Shown piece after piece: positions 3,265 to 46,574 of a stretch of DNA of 60,453 nucleotides. The position numbers and the translations under genes are program-made. The DNA lies in assembly GCA_020832405.1 (NCBI GenBank), contig JAFIET010000016.1:1-60453 (forward strand). Direction: 5' to 3'. Under the pieces are notes generated by a model, which saw only the letters and a program-made list of their open reading frames with translations, was not told the DNA's origin and searched no databases. Source of the DNA: Balneolales bacterium (GTDB lineage Bacteria; Bacteroidota; Rhodothermia; Balneolales; Cyclonatronaceae). Positions within the stretch are counted from its first letter, which is position 1. Each line of letters opens with the position of its first letter.

Positions 3265-4902
3265 ATGAGAAAAAAAGAGAAACGTTTCCCCGACTGGACG
3301 AAAACAGTTGTGGGCCTGTGCCTGGGCTTGATTGGCTTTATGATTCCCCTTTTTGTTCACTTCGACGGGCTTTCGTTTGCCGGCCATCTCACTTTGGGGA
3401 TATTCCTGGTTGCGGCGTCGTTCTGGATGCTGGAGCCCATCCCCATTTATGCAACTTCCATGCTGGTTATTTTCCTGCAAATTGTGCTGCTGAGCACGCA
3501 GGGGCCGCTTTTTCAGGATTCATCCCTGCCGGAGTTTCAGCTTGAAGCGGCCGCACAGGAGCAGGTCTGGCAGGTGCCCGATTCGGCCGTTGACGGCAAT
3601 CAGCTCTGGCTTCGAAAGGGGGCAAGGAGTTCCGAGGCGATTCAGATAGAAGTGGTTGAAAGCGAAGCCGGTTTCACCTTTGTGCGCAGCGGAGAGCTGA
3701 GCGAAGGCACTGCCATTGTTTCGGATGTGAACCACAAACTGGTAGGCTACACCCCGGCATCATACACCCTATTTTTGGGTACGCTCGCGAGCCCCATCAT
3801 CATTCTGTTCCTCGGCGGTTTCATGCTTGCGGCAGCCGCAGTGAAATACAACCTTGATAAGAACCTTACCAACGTGCTGCTCAAACCCTTCGGTCAGAAA
3901 CCGATGTTCATTATTCTCGGTTTGATGCTGGTAACGGCCGTACTATCAGCTTTTATGAGCAACACGGCTACTACTGCGATGATGATGACGGTCGCCATCC
4001 CCATCGCCCTGCAGATTGACACGAAAGATAAATTCCGGATTATTCTTGCCCTCAGTATCCCGATTGCGGCCAACCTTGGCGGTATGGCTACGCCGATCGG
4101 AACCCCGCCCAACGCCATCGTGATTTCGGCGCTCAATCAGCAGGGCATACAGCTGGCTTTCGGTACCTGGATGCTGATCGCAACGCCGCTGGTAATTGTA
4201 ATGCTGCTGGCCGCATGGGGGCTGATGCGCTTTTTCTACCCGCCAACGGTAACAAGTTTTAAGCTACAGCTCGACAGCGCCTTTGAGAAATCGCCCAAAG
4301 CGATCATCATGTACGCTGTTTTTGCACTTACGGTGCTGTTGTGGGTTACCGAGGCGCAGCACGGCATACCGAGCGGCATGGTCGCTTTCCTGCCGATTAT
4401 GGCCCTCACCGTGAGCAGCGTACTCGAGAAAGAAGACATCCGGAAGCTTCCCTGGGAAGTGCTCTGGCTGGTAGCCGGCGGTATTTCGCTCGGCCTTTCG
4501 ATGGAAAACACAGGCCTGGCCGTATGGCTGGTTTCCAGCATCAGCTGGGATGTGCTGCCGCAGATTATGCTGCTGCTGGTGTTCGGCTTTGTAGCCCTGA
4601 TGCTTTCCAACTTCCTGAGCAATACTGTAACCGCAACGCTGCTCATTCCGCTGGCCGTGAGCATGGGTACCTCGGGTATAGCCGGTGAAGGCTTCAGCCT
4701 GGTTATTTCAGCCGTGCTTATCGGTATGGCCTGTAACATGGCGATGCTGCTGCCTATTTCTACCCCGCCTAATGCTATTGCCATGAGTACCGGTTATATT
4801 AAAACAGCCGATATGGTTAAAATCGGCGGCATAATCGGGATTATTGGCCTGTTTGTGGCGCTTGCCTACGCGGTGCTGTTCTGGCCTGCCGTTCTTTTAT
4901 AA
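3265..4902 (+). CDS. SLC13/DASS-family anion symporter with a soluble insert
   Basis: A 545-residue integral membrane protein of the divalent anion:sodium symporter family (dicarboxylates, sulfate or phosphate; the substrate cannot be read from sequence). The two inverted repeats each carry the SNT signature (SNTAT at 232-236, SNTVTATL at 452-459) and the paired Pro-Asn loops (GTPPN 279-283, STPPN 499-503) that bind sodium and carboxylate in VcINDY-type carriers. After the second membrane helix there is an extra soluble segment of about 85 residues (about 82-165). Its pattern at 101-160 (VPDSAV, then QLWLRKG, IEVVESEAGFTFVRSG, LSEGTAIV) resembles the membrane-proximal domain of RND/HlyD membrane fusion proteins. 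AAGGA at 3248-3252 may serve as ribosome binding site. The stop is 20 bases before the receiver gene, suggesting co-transcription and a functional link. Confidence 0.88.
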   Translation: MRKKEKRFPDWTKTVVGLCLGLIGFMIPLFVHFDGLSFAGHLTLGIFLVAASFWMLEPIPIYATSMLVIFLQIVLLSTQGPLFQDSSLPEFQLEAAAQEQVWQVPDSAVDGNQLWLRKGARSSEAIQIEVVESEAGFTFVRSGELSEGTAIVSDVNHKLVGYTPASYTLFLGTLASPIIILFLGGFMLAAAAVKYNLDKNLTNVLLKPFGQKPMFIILGLMLVTAVLSAFMSNTATTAMMMTVAIPIALQIDTKDKFRIILALSIPIAANLGGMATPIGTPPNAIVISALNQQGIQLAFGTWMLIATPLVIVMLLAAWGLMRFFYPPTVTSFKLQLDSAFEKSPKAIIMYAVFALTVLLWVTEAQHGIPSGMVAFLPIMALTVSSVLEKEDIRKLPWEVLWLVAGGISLGLSMENTGLAVWLVSSISWDVLPQIMLLLVFGFVALMLSNFLSNTVTATLLIPLAVSMGTSGIAGEGFSLVISAVLIGMACNMAMLLPISTPPNAIAMSTGYIKTADMVKIGGIIGIIGLFVALAYAVLFWPAVLL

Positions 4903-4922
4903 ACATTTGAGGAGACTGACCT

Positions 4923-5420
4923 ATGTCAACAATTTATATTTTATGTGTTGAAGATGAGCCCGAAGTTCTGGACGTTGTTGTTCGCGACCTCGCAGCGCTC
5001 GAAGACGTTTTCCCTATCGAAATGGCGGTTTCTGCTGAAGAAGCCCGTCAGATCATCAAAGAAATCGAGGAGAACGGTGATAAAATCGGCCTTGCCATCT
5101 GCGATCACGTAATGCCCGGAGATAAGGGCGTTGAGCTGATGATTGAGATGCAGAACGAGCCCTTCACCGAGCGCACCCGCAAGGTGCTGCTCACCGGGCA
5201 GGCCGGCCTCGATGCTACCATCGAAGCCGTTAACCATGCCCGACTCAACCGCTACATCGCAAAACCCTGGGATCCCGAAAATCTCATGAAAGTTGCCATT
5301 GATGAACTCACAACCTATGTGATTGAGGCAGAAAAAAACCTGCTTCCGTTCATGAGTTCGCTCGATGCACGGCGGCTTCAGGAGGCGATCCGTGCCAGAG
5401 GCAGCATATCTGATTATTAA
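4923..5420 (+). CDS. Stand-alone response regulator receiver protein
   Basis: A 165-residue CheY-like protein. The acidic pocket is E10-D11 (CVEDEP), the phosphoacceptor is D61 (ICDHVMPG), the switch threonine is T91 (LLTGQ) and the conserved lysine is K114 (YIAKPW). The KPW ending is typical of receivers paired with large hybrid or cNMP-type kinases. After the receiver only about 35 residues remain (helical, ending RARGSISDY), so there is no DNA-binding or enzymatic output; it probably acts by protein contact or as a phosphorelay step. A good GAGGAG Shine-Dalgarno lies just before the start. It sits between the SLC13 transporter and a histidine kinase, its likely phosphodonor. Confidence 0.9.
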   Translation: MSTIYILCVEDEPEVLDVVVRDLAALEDVFPIEMAVSAEEARQIIKEIEENGDKIGLAICDHVMPGDKGVELMIEMQNEPFTERTRKVLLTGQAGLDATIEAVNHARLNRYIAKPWDPENLMKVAIDELTTYVIEAEKNLLPFMSSLDARRLQEAIRARGSISDY

Positions 5421-5522
5421 CGCTGTGCATGTTTCCCGGTTCAATGAGGCCTGCTTTATGAGCAGGCTTCACTCCGTGATGCTCAGTCAGGATTTCTGAA
5501 GATTGTAAACCGTACTAAATTT

Positions 5523-7055
5523 ATGGCAGGTGATGAAAGCCGCATGCGGCTGCTAAAAAATTCACGGGAAAGGGTGAAAGGTCAGATTCCGCCCCTCGAG
5601 TTTGGTTCTGCAGGCCGCAGACTCGATAAAGAAGCGTTTGTAAAAGCAATTAAGGAGCTTTTGCCGGGTTCGGAACTGCTTTCGCGGCATCATCAGGTGT
5701 ATGAGGAAGGAGAGGTCATTCTTCGTGAAAATCAGGAAAACCGCCGCCTTTTTGTGATTCTGACCGGCTATGTGAAGCAGCTCAAGAAGCATGATGATTT
5801 CGAGATAGCCATAGACCTGCAGGGCCCGGGTGATTTTATGGGATTGCTATCATTCACGACCGGGCAGCCCGTTTTTACGACCGCCCGCGCAAGTGGCAGG
5901 GTGGAAGTGCTTCGGGTGGGGCAGTCATCCCTCGATAAAATTCAGGACAGCTACCCGGAAATCAGCAAGGTGATTCAGGGCCTAATCTTCTATAACCTGA
6001 GCGAGCGCTACCGGCGTGTGGTAACCCTGCACATGGAAATTGCACAGCTCTCGCGCGAGCTCGAAAAAGAGCGCAACACTCTGCGCAATACCATCACCGA
6101 GCTGGAGCAAACGCGCAACCTACTCATCAATCAGGAAAAAATGGCGACCCTGGGTGAGCTCACTGCCGGGCTTGCGCACGAAATCAACAACCCGGCATCG
6201 GCCCTGCTGCGCTCGGTTGACTACCTCACCCGCGTGCTGCCCGAAATGGCCGAGCAGGCCGGTGCCCTGCCCGATACCGGCATGGTGCGTACCTTCCTGG
6301 AAGCAGGCCTCAACCGCGAAGTGCAAAGCACAGACGATCAGCGCAATAAAATGCGGGAAATTCAGAAAAAGTACCCGCATCTAAACCGCTCAACCGTTCG
6401 GGATATGGCCGAGCTGAATACCGAAATGCTGGCCAAAATTGATTCCTTCGCCCAAAACAGCGATAAGCCGCGCTCACTGCGGCTGCTGCTCGACAGCCAT
6501 CAGGCCGGAGTATTTTTGGGCAGCATCAAACTTTCAACCGGCAGGATTGGTCATCTCGTGAAAAGCCTGAAAAGCTACAGCCGTGATTCGCGGGCGGAGC
6601 CTGAAGTGGCAGACATCCGCCTCGGCATTCAGGAAACCCTCATGATTATCGGAAACCGCCTGCGCGATATTGAGGTGAGTGTTAATCTGCCCGAAATCCC
6701 GATGGTGCGCTGCTATGTGGGCGAGCTGAACCAGGTCTGGACCAACATCGTTATTAATGCCTGCGATGCGATGGATGATACGGGCAGGCTTTACATCAAC
6801 TGCGGCACCTCGGCAAACGATATGGTCTGGGTTACCATTGCCGATTCAGGGCCGGGGGTTCCGGACAACCTGAAAGCGAAAATCTTTGATTCCAGCTTCA
6901 CAACCAAAACAGCCGGCGGCGAATTCGGCCTGGGGATTGGCCTCGCCATCACCCGTAGCATCATCCAGAAGCACAGCGGTACCATAAGCGTGCGGGATCG
7001 TATGGGCGGCGGAGCCGAGTTCATCATTCACCTTCCCGTTTACAAAAAAATATAG
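5523..7055 (+). CDS. Soluble histidine kinase with N-terminal cyclic-nucleotide-binding-like domain
   Basis: A 510-residue protein with no membrane helix. Residues about 50-165 form a cNMP-binding/Crp-type beta-roll (RLFVILTGYVKQ, GPGDFMGLLSF). A coiled coil (about 170-210, rich in Glu/Arg/Leu) leads into HisKA with phosphoacceptor H219 in GLAHEINNP. The second HisKA helix appears only at about 340-360 (RIGHLVKSLKSYSR), so roughly 100 residues are inserted in the hairpin. The ATPase domain has N412 (NACDAM), D441 (DSGPGVPD) and FGLGIGLAI. It phosphorylates, presumably, the receiver encoded 102 bases upstream. The domain order cNMP-coiled coil-HisKA-HATPase is known in Bacteroidota and cyanobacteria. 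The ligand of the beta-roll is unknown; the Arg that contacts cyclic-nucleotide phosphate is not evident, so it may be a structural or protein-binding fold. Confidence 0.9.
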   Translation: MAGDESRMRLLKNSRERVKGQIPPLEFGSAGRRLDKEAFVKAIKELLPGSELLSRHHQVYEEGEVILRENQENRRLFVILTGYVKQLKKHDDFEIAIDLQGPGDFMGLLSFTTGQPVFTTARASGRVEVLRVGQSSLDKIQDSYPEISKVIQGLIFYNLSERYRRVVTLHMEIAQLSRELEKERNTLRNTITELEQTRNLLINQEKMATLGELTAGLAHEINNPASALLRSVDYLTRVLPEMAEQAGALPDTGMVRTFLEAGLNREVQSTDDQRNKMREIQKKYPHLNRSTVRDMAELNTEMLAKIDSFAQNSDKPRSLRLLLDSHQAGVFLGSIKLSTGRIGHLVKSLKSYSRDSRAEPEVADIRLGIQETLMIIGNRLRDIEVSVNLPEIPMVRCYVGELNQVWTNIVINACDAMDDTGRLYINCGTSANDMVWVTIADSGPGVPDNLKAKIFDSSFTTKTAGGEFGLGIGLAITRSIIQKHSGTISVRDRMGGGAEFIIHLPVYKKI

Positions 7056-7133: not shown

Positions 7134-7472
7134 TCAGCAGTTGCCTCTGGTGCCCATAAACCCGGGCACTTTCTGGCGTGGCACAATCCGGGCTTCCGCA
7201 GTTTTTCGGAACCAGCCTTTTTTTAGCATGAGGGAAACCTGTGCAGCAGGGGGCAGCCGCAGCTCCGCTGAAACAAATATGGTTACACCGTCCTGACTAT
7301 ATTCGGCAAAGGACGGGTCTTTTTTTGTGTTTTCCGGTATGATATCGGCCTGAGGCTTATCCTCCTGATCTCCCGGAAGCAGGCGTAATACAGCGCCGGA
7401 ATCCATTAGGTGAAACAGCAGTGCAGGTTCAAGAAAAAAAAGGGGGCGGGTAAGCGGGGTATGTGGCTCCAT
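7134..7472 (-). CDS. Small hypothetical protein
   Basis: A 112-residue frame starting at ATG 7472. I do not recognise the family. The sequence is soluble, with no signal peptide or membrane helix; it has a run of hydrophobic residues early (LFFLEPALLFHLMDSG) and a basic C-terminus. It sits alone, opposite to the kinase (convergent) and divergent from the thioredoxin gene. The amino-acid composition looks natural and no longer frame competes on the other strand, which is why I keep it; it could still be spurious. Confidence 0.5.
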   Translation of the reverse strand: MEPHTPLTRPLFFLEPALLFHLMDSGAVLRLLPGDQEDKPQADIIPENTKKDPSFAEYSQDGVTIFVSAELRLPPAAQVSLMLKKGWFRKTAEARIVPRQKVPGFMGTRGNC

Positions 7473-13855: not shown

Positions 13856-15160
13856 GTGAACAGAAACAGTACAGCTATTATTATCAGCATCTTATTAGGC
13901 CTCACATTTTTGCTTCAGGCCTGTAGTGATACCGGTGAGGGGGAAATGCAGCGCAGGGGCGGCCATATACCAACAGTTGAAGTTATTCAGACGGTAATGG
14001 GTTCTCTTCCGCTCGAAGAGCGTCTTACAGGCGTTGTGAGGGCGCGGAATCAGGCAGAAGTTTTCCCAGAAATTACGGCTCCTGTTGTCGAGATTCTGGT
14101 CAACAGCGGTGATCAGGTTCGTAAGGGGCAGCCGCTGGTGCGTCTTCGCGATTCAGAAGCAAGGGAACGTGTGCGGCAGGCAGAAGCCGGCCTTCAGATT
14201 GCTGAAGCACAGGTGAGGCAGGCGCAGGCCAATGTGCAGCGCCTTGAATCCCGTTTAACGCGAGTGCAGACCCTGAGTGTGAGAAACCTCGAGAGCGAGC
14301 TCGAGCTTGAACAGCTCGAAGCCGAAGTGGAAGCTTCCCGTGCTGCTCTGCAGCTGGCACAGGCTCAGAAAACACAGGCCGGATCCGTTCTTGAGGAACG
14401 TCGTAACGACCTCAGCAACACGGTGGTAAAGGCACCAACAGACGGTTTTGTAGGCACAAGGCATATAGAAGTCGGGCAAATTGCCGGCCCTTCAACACGA
14501 TTGTTTGAAATTGGTGATACCCGTGTGATGACCATTCGGGTGTCGCTTACGGAAAGAATGCTGGGCTATATTGAAACCGGTCAAACGGTTAACATCACTT
14601 CCCCGGCATTTGGTGGCGAAGTCATTCAGACGCCGCTTAGCCGGATTTCCCCTTTCATCAATCCCGTAACCAATTCAGCAGAGGCTGAAATTGAGCTCCA
14701 GAATCCCGACGGGCTGCTGCGCGCCGGCATGTTTGTGACAGTTGATATTCTTTACGGCGAAAGCGAGCAGGCCGTTTTGGTGCCCAATAACGCGTTATTC
14801 ACCAATCCGAACGATGGCCGCCGCGGGGTTTATGTTGCTGATCGCGGTGCACTCACAGAGCTCGGGCAGATTGAAGCCGGTGAAGCTAACAGCCCCATAA
14901 TCGGACCAACAGGCATGGTTTTTATGCCCGTAACGGTGGTTGCGCAGGGGCGTCAGGTTTCGGGTGTGAGTGGCATTCAGCCGGGTGATCTCGTGGTTAC
15001 GATTGGCCAAAACCTGCTTGCTTCCGGCAGGGAAGAAGCCAGGGTTCGGGTAACAAGCTGGGATCGCATCCTGGAGCTGCAGCAACTTCAGAACCGGGAT
15101 TTGCTCGACCTCATCCGGCAAAAACTGGCTAACACCAACGGCAACCCCAACGATGCCTGA
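13856..15160 (+). CDS. RND efflux membrane fusion (periplasmic adaptor) lipoprotein
   Basis: A 434-residue protein starting at GTG 13856. The lipobox puts the acylated cysteine at C23 (FLLQAC). A lipoyl-like half domain (about 75-105, EILVNSGDQVRKGQPLVRL), a long alpha-helical hairpin rich in Ala/Gln/Glu (about 105-190), the second lipoyl half (VVKAPTDGFVG), a beta-barrel (about 220-300) and the membrane-proximal domain (about 300-385, VLVPNNALF to VVTIGQNLLASG) follow the AcrA/MexA order. It links the RND pump encoded 58 bases downstream to an outer-membrane channel. No TolC-type gene lies in this operon. Export substrate is unknown. Confidence 0.92.
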   Translation: MNRNSTAIIISILLGLTFLLQACSDTGEGEMQRRGGHIPTVEVIQTVMGSLPLEERLTGVVRARNQAEVFPEITAPVVEILVNSGDQVRKGQPLVRLRDSEARERVRQAEAGLQIAEAQVRQAQANVQRLESRLTRVQTLSVRNLESELELEQLEAEVEASRAALQLAQAQKTQAGSVLEERRNDLSNTVVKAPTDGFVGTRHIEVGQIAGPSTRLFEIGDTRVMTIRVSLTERMLGYIETGQTVNITSPAFGGEVIQTPLSRISPFINPVTNSAEAEIELQNPDGLLRAGMFVTVDILYGESEQAVLVPNNALFTNPNDGRRGVYVADRGALTELGQIEAGEANSPIIGPTGMVFMPVTVVAQGRQVSGVSGIQPGDLVVTIGQNLLASGREEARVRVTSWDRILELQQLQNRDLLDLIRQKLANTNGNPNDA

Positions 15161-43322: not shown

Positions 43323-45335
<2,013 letters not shown>

Positions 45336-46574
45336 TTAAAACAGCGGCCGGTCAATTATTTCACGGGGCGGTGCAACGCCATCCGGCAGCCCGGGTTCAG
45401 TGAATGACTCCAGAGTTGGGTCTTGTTCAAACTGACTGCGCCTGATGATGCGTTCACCCTGAGCGTTAGTTTCCGCAAAAGTTGTAATTACGCGGTCGTT
45501 GTAGAGTACAAGCATACGGTTCAGATTACCTGAAACGGCAATTTCATTGATAAACTGAATGCGCATGCCGCGGCCGATTTCCACCCAGTAAGGGCGGCGG
45601 TTTTCGAAGGTATCGGCCCGAACCCTGAAGGGCTCGAGATTGCCTGTAGCAGCATAAATCACCACAGAGAGGGTGTCAGGCAGGGTTTGCAGGGCCGGTA
45701 CGCTAATACCCGGATCAGGAGCTACCGGGGCATCAAGGGTATCGGATAGCAGTAAAGCCGATTCATGCTGCGCGGAAGGTGCGCTGCGCTGCGTTTCTTC
45801 AGTGCCTGACCCGAAAAGCCCGCTGAAGCCGTCTTCACTGTTGAAGTACCAGTACCCGAAGGCACCGAGCGCAATTACGACAAGTGCAACAATTAAAATG
45901 GCCGAAACCGGAACCGTATTTTTCCGGGAAGCCCCGCGGCTTACGTCGCTCCAGTTAACCTCAGATGGGCGGGGGCCTCTCAGTGTACTGGGAGCTGCAA
46001 TGCGGGTAGGCTGAGGTGTAGTTTTCTCAGCTGAAGCTTCTGTCGCTCTATCACTGCTTTGCCTGCTATCAGTTGTTCTTTCCTGCTTGGGAGGGGCGGC
46101 GGTATCGGCTTTCCGGGGGCTGCCCGAGTTGGTTGTGCCCCTGCTGCTGTTTGCCTGCGCAGGAACCGCAGAGCTTTGATCGGTCGTTTTTCTGGTTTCG
46201 GTAACGCGCTTAGGTGCAGCTTCAGGAGCAGAAGCCTGTGGCTTTTGTTCCGGCTTGCCGGTTTGTGTCCGCGATTCAGCAGAAGCGGTCTTCCCGGCGC
46301 CTAAAGCATATTTCTGAACAAGATACCCCTGGTAAGTGCCGGTTTCCATCTGATCGAGGGCCTCTATCATATCTTCATCCCGAATACCAAGCGCTCTGGC
46401 ATAGGTGCGCACGAAACTGCGGATGTAGGTCTTGTTCTGATCCGATTCAAAAATACTGCCGTCTTCGATCTGTCGGATAATCAGCGTTGAAAGACGGGTC
46501 TTGTCATGAATATCATCTGCACTTAATTTGAGCTGCTGCCGGATTAAAATTAAATCGTCCTGAAGCTGGGCCAT
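45336..46574 (-). CDS. RodZ-like protein: N-terminal HTH, one membrane helix, C-terminal DUF4115-type domain
   Basis: A 412-residue protein from ATG 46574, 22 codons inside the longest frame, preceded by AGGTAG. Residues 1-80 form a Cro/RodZ helix-turn-helix (IRQQLKLSADDIHDKTRLS, TYIRSFVRTYARALGI). A long Ser/Thr/Pro/Gln-rich linker follows, then a membrane helix at about 220-240 (VSAILIVALVVIALGAFGY) and a periplasmic beta-rich domain (about 300-390, LSVVIYAATGNLEPFRVRAD) matching DUF4115. RodZ links MreB to the cell-wall machinery; whether this protein does so is inference. Confidence 0.85.
   Translation of the reverse strand: MAQLQDDLILIRQQLKLSADDIHDKTRLSTLIIRQIEDGSIFESDQNKTYIRSFVRTYARALGIRDEDMIEALDQMETGTYQGYLVQKYALGAGKTASAESRTQTGKPEQKPQASAPEAAPKRVTETRKTTDQSSAVPAQANSSRGTTNSGSPRKADTAAPPKQERTTDSRQSSDRATEASAEKTTPQPTRIAAPSTLRGPRPSEVNWSDVSRGASRKNTVPVSAILIVALVVIALGAFGYWYFNSEDGFSGLFGSGTEETQRSAPSAQHESALLLSDTLDAPVAPDPGISVPALQTLPDTLSVVIYAATGNLEPFRVRADTFENRRPYWVEIGRGMRIQFINEIAVSGNLNRMLVLYNDRVITTFAETNAQGERIIRRSQFEQDPTLESFTEPGLPDGVAPPREIIDRPLF

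Follow-up and report, generated by a model that had tools for sequence, protein, structure and literature searches.

The window (the whole stretch of 60,453 nucleotides analyzed here) encodes a DASS/SLC13 carrier with a soluble domain inserted in the loop between transmembrane helices TM3 and TM4, and sequence profiles and structure models together indicate that this domain is almost certainly a homolog of the membrane-proximal domain (MPD) of RND periplasmic adaptors. The carrier with its embedded MPD is a real combination of parts, and apparently one that is so far undescribed. The MPD is a known domain, and LaINDY already provides an example of a DASS protein with an insertion between TM3 and TM4; the combination appears to be new, as an SLC13 carrier joined to a membrane fusion protein domain was not found among open-licence PMC papers. 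The carrier and its two signature motifs are located as follows.

3265 to 4902 (stop included), + strand: DASS/SLC13 anion carrier of 545 amino acids, predicted to be sodium-coupled (family models, VcINDY match)
3958 to 3966, + strand: first SNT motif, residues 232 to 234, aligned to VcINDY; S232, N233 and T234 are invariant in alignment A2
4618 to 4626, + strand: second SNT motif, residues 452 to 454, aligned to VcINDY; S452 and T454 are invariant and N453 is conserved in at least 90% of A2

The protein passes the cut-off of the curated NCBIfam model for the DASS family (TIGR00785, E value of 3.4e-78, 263.4 bits against a cut-off of 198.6) and matches the Pfam families CitMHS (7.7e-45) and Na_sulph_symp (5.5e-42). 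Its best PDB match by sequence is VcINDY (phmmer, E about 7e-46), in an alignment that begins only at residue 171, and VcINDY is likewise the top PDB fold match of a full-length AlphaFold model with pLDDT 86.4 and pTM 0.82 (Foldseek 1.7e-20; TM-score 0.84 by target). From sequence and model, the protein is a DASS elevator carrier that shares the carrier fold, both SNT motifs and the order of helices with VcINDY and the SLC13/DASS sodium-dicarboxylate carriers (TIGR00785, PF00939); Na+-coupled uptake of di/tricarboxylates or sulfate is only predicted. The open reading frame, the carrier family and the presence of an extra soluble segment are thus as described in an earlier note on this DNA, and the motifs cited there are all present in the translation.

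The limits of the extra segment were set by comparison with 20 close orthologs from a sister family of the same order (f2), which lack it and are 57 to 63% identical to the window protein over the carrier. These read '...LLSKEGFLFQSATETYTPDSYTAFMGTLANPII...' at this point, with 10 to 15 residues where the window carrier has about 85, and because the gap is clean the insert can be confined to residues 86 to 159. The span proposed earlier, 3505 to 3760, does contain the insert and slightly overshoots it at both ends. The full-length model has helices at residues 10 to 30, 38 to 56 and 61 to 76, followed by strands from residue 90 to 152 and then the helices of TM4; the segment therefore occupies the TM3-TM4 loop, following the third transmembrane helix and not the second, as had first been thought. 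Conservation was read from A1, an alignment of 34 inserts that includes near-copies and in which the same genome may be present from two collections.

3520 to 3741, + strand: inserted soluble domain of about 74 residues (86 to 159), absent from insert-less orthologs (alignments with the 20 close insert-less orthologs; A1)
3493 to 3519, + strand: N-terminal junction, residues 77 to 85, S-x-Q-G-P-L-F/Y, strongly conserved; in A1, S1 is invariant and Q3 and G4 are conserved in at least 90%
3724 to 3771, + strand: C-terminal junction, residues 154 to 169, D-V-N-H-K-L-V-G-Y-x-P; H81, Y86 and P88 are conserved in at least 90% of A1

At the C-terminal junction, the H, Y and P are almost invariant in carriers with the insert, and Y-x-P is retained in most insert-less carriers too. 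Outside both junctions, the sole invariant residues in A1 are a P and an A of the kind that maintains the fold, and consequently no dedicated binding site is visible in the insert. Judged from the alignment, the invariant P and A and the conserved junctions fit a fixed mounting with no conserved site for a small ligand.

The earlier note held that DASS/SLC13 carriers normally have a short loop here. The f2 orthologs have such a loop, and in VcINDY about ten residues stand at the site of the 74-residue domain; LaINDY (PDB ID: 6wtw) is a known exception, with a TM3-TM4 insertion that projects into the periplasm close to the dimer interface (PMC7553777). The window carrier resembles LaINDY in the placement of its insertion and differs from this exchanger in keeping the SNT motifs of Na+-coupled carriers. 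In a PDB sequence search, the LaINDY insertion did not match the insert profile at E values up to 10. In DASS proteins, TM1 to TM4 belong to the scaffold (PMC7553777). The N terminus of the window carrier holds five K/R and the loop between TM1 and TM2 holds none. Given this distribution, the location after TM3 and the LaINDY precedent, the insert is predicted to sit on the scaffold and very probably faces the periplasm.

On its own, the window insert gave no family match in Pfam or NCBIfam and no PDB sequence match, and the whole carrier protein gave no HlyD or adaptor match in either family collection; the case for homology therefore rests on the profile of the insert family. The NCBIfam model RND_mfp (TIGR01730) matches 17 of the 34 inserts, at best with an E value of 1.2e-6, and in the sister inserts inspected singly, the match covers positions of about 243 to 315 of 322, which correspond to the C-terminal MPD. 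Pfam searches over all insert members returned only scattered single-member matches, which were taken as chance. We compared A1 by hhalign with an alignment of 28 adaptors from the genomes examined and obtained a score of 36.3, against a mean of 12.5 (sd 2.2, maximum 21.6) for 200 column-permuted inserts and 14.5 for the reversed insert.

3556 to 3726, + strand: segment of the insert aligned to adaptors (hhalign, score 36.9 to adaptor columns 296 to 354; TIGR01730, about 243 to 315 of 322 in sister inserts)

The joint alignment of insert and adaptors has in common I/V-P-x-x-A-L/V, a strand of alternating V/L, a V-x-V strand and L-x-x-G/D-x-x-I/V-V/A-T/S. The relationship was also recovered in the opposite direction. 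An HMM built from A1 and run against 395 genomes from the phylum returned the carriers at E < 1e-18 and then open reading frames of 360 to 503 amino acids at 1.5e-6 to 0.01. In the adaptor-sized ORFs that we inspected, the C-terminal sequence is that of a typical adaptor MPD, and all nine of the non-carrier matches tested by family (9/9) are RND adaptors above the curated cut-off, as is L085, a weaker match from a search of 21 genomes. When the insert HMM was run against the PDB, the top matches were designed repeat TIM barrels, set aside as sums of repeats of about 10 bits each; next came chain 6vej, an adaptor from the TriABC transporter, with an E value of 0.0053.

Structure models point the same way. 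The insert modeled alone reached a pLDDT of 84.6 (67 to 85 across five models), and within the full-length model the same stretch lies mostly at 81 to 90. In a Foldseek search of the PDB, the main coherent group of matches consists of adaptor MPDs, namely, those of SilB, AcrA, TriA, CusB, MexA, TMexC and ZneB, with probabilities of 0.99 to 1.00 for SilB, AcrA, TriA, CusB, MexA and ZneB and mostly 0.9 to 1.0 across the group. SilB ranks first with the best E value, 0.033, and rmsd is as low as 1.8 Å (ZneB); weak E values are expected for a query of only 90 residues. Barrels of F-type ATP synthase and flagellar ATPases are also among the matches. Sequence and predicted fold thus agree on an MPD-type β-roll, and together we find them convincing. 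On this question the earlier note fares well: the insert model is confident and has an adaptor MPD as its best structural match, homologs carry the insert, and the likeness at family level is upheld by the RND_mfp matches, by hhalign with its permutations, by the 395-genome HMM search and by Foldseek.

What the insert shares with RND/HME adaptors (SilB, AcrA, MexA, CusB, ZneB, TriA; TIGR01730) is the sequence profile, the order of strands, the I/V-P-x-x-A-L/V pattern and the β-roll. The architecture differs, in that the adaptors assemble their MPD from the two ends of the chain around hairpin, lipoyl and barrel domains, whereas the carrier holds it as one continuous piece inside a membrane protein. 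The carrier lacks the barrel, lipoyl and α-hairpin domains, and the insert measures only about 74 residues. Because it is a single continuous segment and not a set of N- and C-terminal elements, we call it an MPD homolog and not an adaptor. The MPD of an adaptor needs a strand from the N-terminal part of the chain to be complete (PMC8277102). A strand that the models place ahead of the homologous core may be its counterpart, which would make the insert a one-piece MPD.

3532 to 3540, + strand: first β-strand of the insert, residues 90 to 92, ahead of the homologous core (DSSP, insert-only and full-length models)

The window also encodes an adaptor of its own, to which the earlier note had likened the insert directly.

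13856 to 15160, + strand: RND periplasmic adaptor (TIGR01730, 1.4e-48, matched only up to position 277 of 322)

This specific parallel is not significant, either by BLASTP (E = 0.69) or by hhalign of the insert profile against the single sequence (probability 0.4%), so that an origin of the insert as a local copy of this gene is unsupported. By its family match the protein is a true RND adaptor with an atypical MPD region: its C-terminal domain is unusual, with the familiar MPD pattern seemingly interrupted by an additional segment.

At 34 loci, spread over many genomes of which one is a single contig of 4.3 Mb, the insert is present as an open frame, and an assembly error or chimera as its source is thereby ruled out; the earlier proposal to survey homologs has been answered in favor of a genuine insert. 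The 34 loci belong to four families of the same order (f1, f3, f4 and f51) and to four Bacteroidales MAGs. The carriers of the MAGs (L005 to L008) are 69% identical to the window carrier and form one group (100/100) that is nested in f1 (enclosing forks 99/91 and above), which suggests transfer into Bacteroidales. In most of them the carrier lies beside the same receiver gene as in the window, described below, plus the kinase gene where the contig extends far enough, so that, on present sequences, the whole carrier module appears to have been transferred with the insert intact, unless the MAG contigs are mis-binned. In the tree, a single change of state on a single branch accounts for the presence and absence of the insert. 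The branch that decides between gain in one lineage and loss in f2 has support of 70/0 with a distant outgroup; a support of 98 from a quick tree was not upheld. Two loci stood out during the survey. At L066/L081 (genome G358, contig C238, around 45248 to 46493), the carrier frame is broken within the insert region, with one TAA and with query parts 1 to 132 and 198 to 541 in separate frames, through a frameshift, an assembly error or decay. At L020 (genome G187, contig C1), equal-scoring copies of the carrier at 5516 to 6664 and 3728200 to 3729348, near both contig ends, probably stem from a circular assembly whose overlap was left unresolved.

Directly 3' of the carrier lie genes for a putative two-component pair.

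4923 to 5420, + strand: response regulator consisting of a receiver domain only (Response_reg, 6.4e-14)
5523 to 7055, + strand: histidine kinase with an N-terminal cNMP-binding domain (HATPase_c, 7.4e-21; cNMP_binding, 9.4e-14; a weak HisKA match, 0.003)

No transmembrane helix is evident in the kinase sequence. The gene set at 3265 to 7055 is kept across the order and in the Bacteroidales MAGs, and the order carrier-receiver-kinase recurs at nearly every close ortholog with long enough flanks, insert-bearing or insert-less; at the more distant DASS proteins L010, L011 and L038 to L041, the receiver-kinase pair does not adjoin. Since the gene order is the same with and without the insert, the module is independent of it, and no neighboring gene that tracks the presence of the insert was seen at the ortholog loci. 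By this comparison, the carrier/receiver/kinase module is the constant part and the insert an optional extra. The set itself possibly represents a carrier-linked signaling module that is new to description, and no paper on a DASS protein with a kinase and regulator was found among open-licence PMC papers. The nearest parallel is CbrA, in which an SLC5 transporter-like part is joined to a histidine kinase (PMC7096432). Both systems tie a secondary carrier to a two-component system; in CbrA the SLC5 part is fused to the kinase, whereas at the window locus the carrier is of the SLC13 type and has a gene of its own, as do the receiver and the cNMP-domain kinase, which looks soluble. Behind the kinase, on the opposite strand (7134 to 7472, -), is an ORF of 112 amino acids without a Pfam match, which occupies the same place in L001 to L004 at 30 to 38% identity.

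In adaptors, MPDs have been linked to assembly, to the presentation of substrates and to the activation of the transporter (PMC8277102). We propose that an MPD of the RND-adaptor kind, inserted in the periplasmic TM3-TM4 loop of a DASS elevator carrier, would fold on the scaffold (TM1 to TM4), the immobile part of the carrier, and outside the membrane, held by its conserved junctions. There it could offer a surface for docking or modulation, in the way that adaptor MPDs touch and stimulate their pumps. It would in this way adjust the carrier, or signal the presence of a partner in the envelope, as part of a carrier/kinase module that can also do without the insert. The earlier note had surmised a sensor or docking domain, perhaps one that couples the carrier to another envelope protein. 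We rate a docking or modulating role on the carrier scaffold at an even chance at best, as the insert evolves much more rapidly than the carrier, shows no visible binding site and has no neighboring gene that tracks it. A more elaborate version appears improbable to us: the adaptor-type domain would serve as a built-in dock through which a secondary importer joins a partner in the periplasm or outer membrane, in a complex that spans the envelope or is regulated, and the importer would signal its state to the neighboring receiver-kinase pair.

The insert could instead be a structural clamp without a protein partner, one that steadies the dimer of the carrier or the face it turns to the periplasm and so contributes to stability or to gating in water that is salty and alkaline. 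Its site is that of the LaINDY insertion, near the dimer interface (PMC7553777), and conserved junctions combined with the lack of visible binding residues are what a brace would be expected to show; moreover, the titles of several MAGs point to sediment samples, presumably from soda lakes. Orthologs that are 57 to 63% identical nevertheless manage without the insert, and we regard a clamp as rather unlikely.

We also considered an extracytoplasmic sensor or substrate-capture domain, which would bind a small ligand such as a carboxylate or cation and either use the carrier to relay its state to the receiver-kinase pair or supply the carrier with substrate. The constant carrier-receiver-kinase order is compatible with this idea, as are CbrA, with its transporter-like part within a kinase system (PMC7096432), and the association of MPDs with substrate presentation and binding (PMC8277102). 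Yet the insert has no conserved polar residues of the kind expected to hold a ligand, the module occurs without it, and the kinase has a cNMP-type input domain of its own and shows no membrane part, so that a sensor seems distinctly unlikely.

Selection bears on a further reading, that an MPD fragment was recombined into a permissive loop, where it is tolerated with little or no function. The loop is evidently permissive in LaINDY, the presence of the insert changes on only one branch of the tree, and its protein sequence evolves several times faster than that of the carrier: in nearly all of 12 pairs compared, dN of the insert exceeds that of the carrier parts. Where computable, dN/dS is about 0.06 to 0.39 for the insert and mostly 0.02 to 0.07 for the carrier, ratios that are rough because most pairs have a dS close to saturation. 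These values are nevertheless well below 1, which indicates from the coding sequences that the insert is under purifying selection, if weaker than that on the carrier; the fold is kept, the P, the A and the junction residues are invariant over four families, and the apparent transfer to Bacteroidales left the insert intact. A tolerated, idle insertion is accordingly a reading in which we place little credence. Convergence of an unrelated β-roll on the MPD form, which the lack of any Foldseek E value below 0.01 and the matches to ATP-synthase barrels might suggest, was already disfavored and is scarcely credible in the face of sequence-profile evidence obtained in both directions and with controls.

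An MPD inside an elevator carrier would mean that this domain can leave the adaptor and be used alone. MPDs are known as the part through which efflux adaptors contact and stimulate their pumps; a carrier with the domain as an insert offers a natural case in which its role may be tested by simple deletion, and the insert-bearing and insert-less orthologs, at 57 to 63% identity, form ready-made test pairs.
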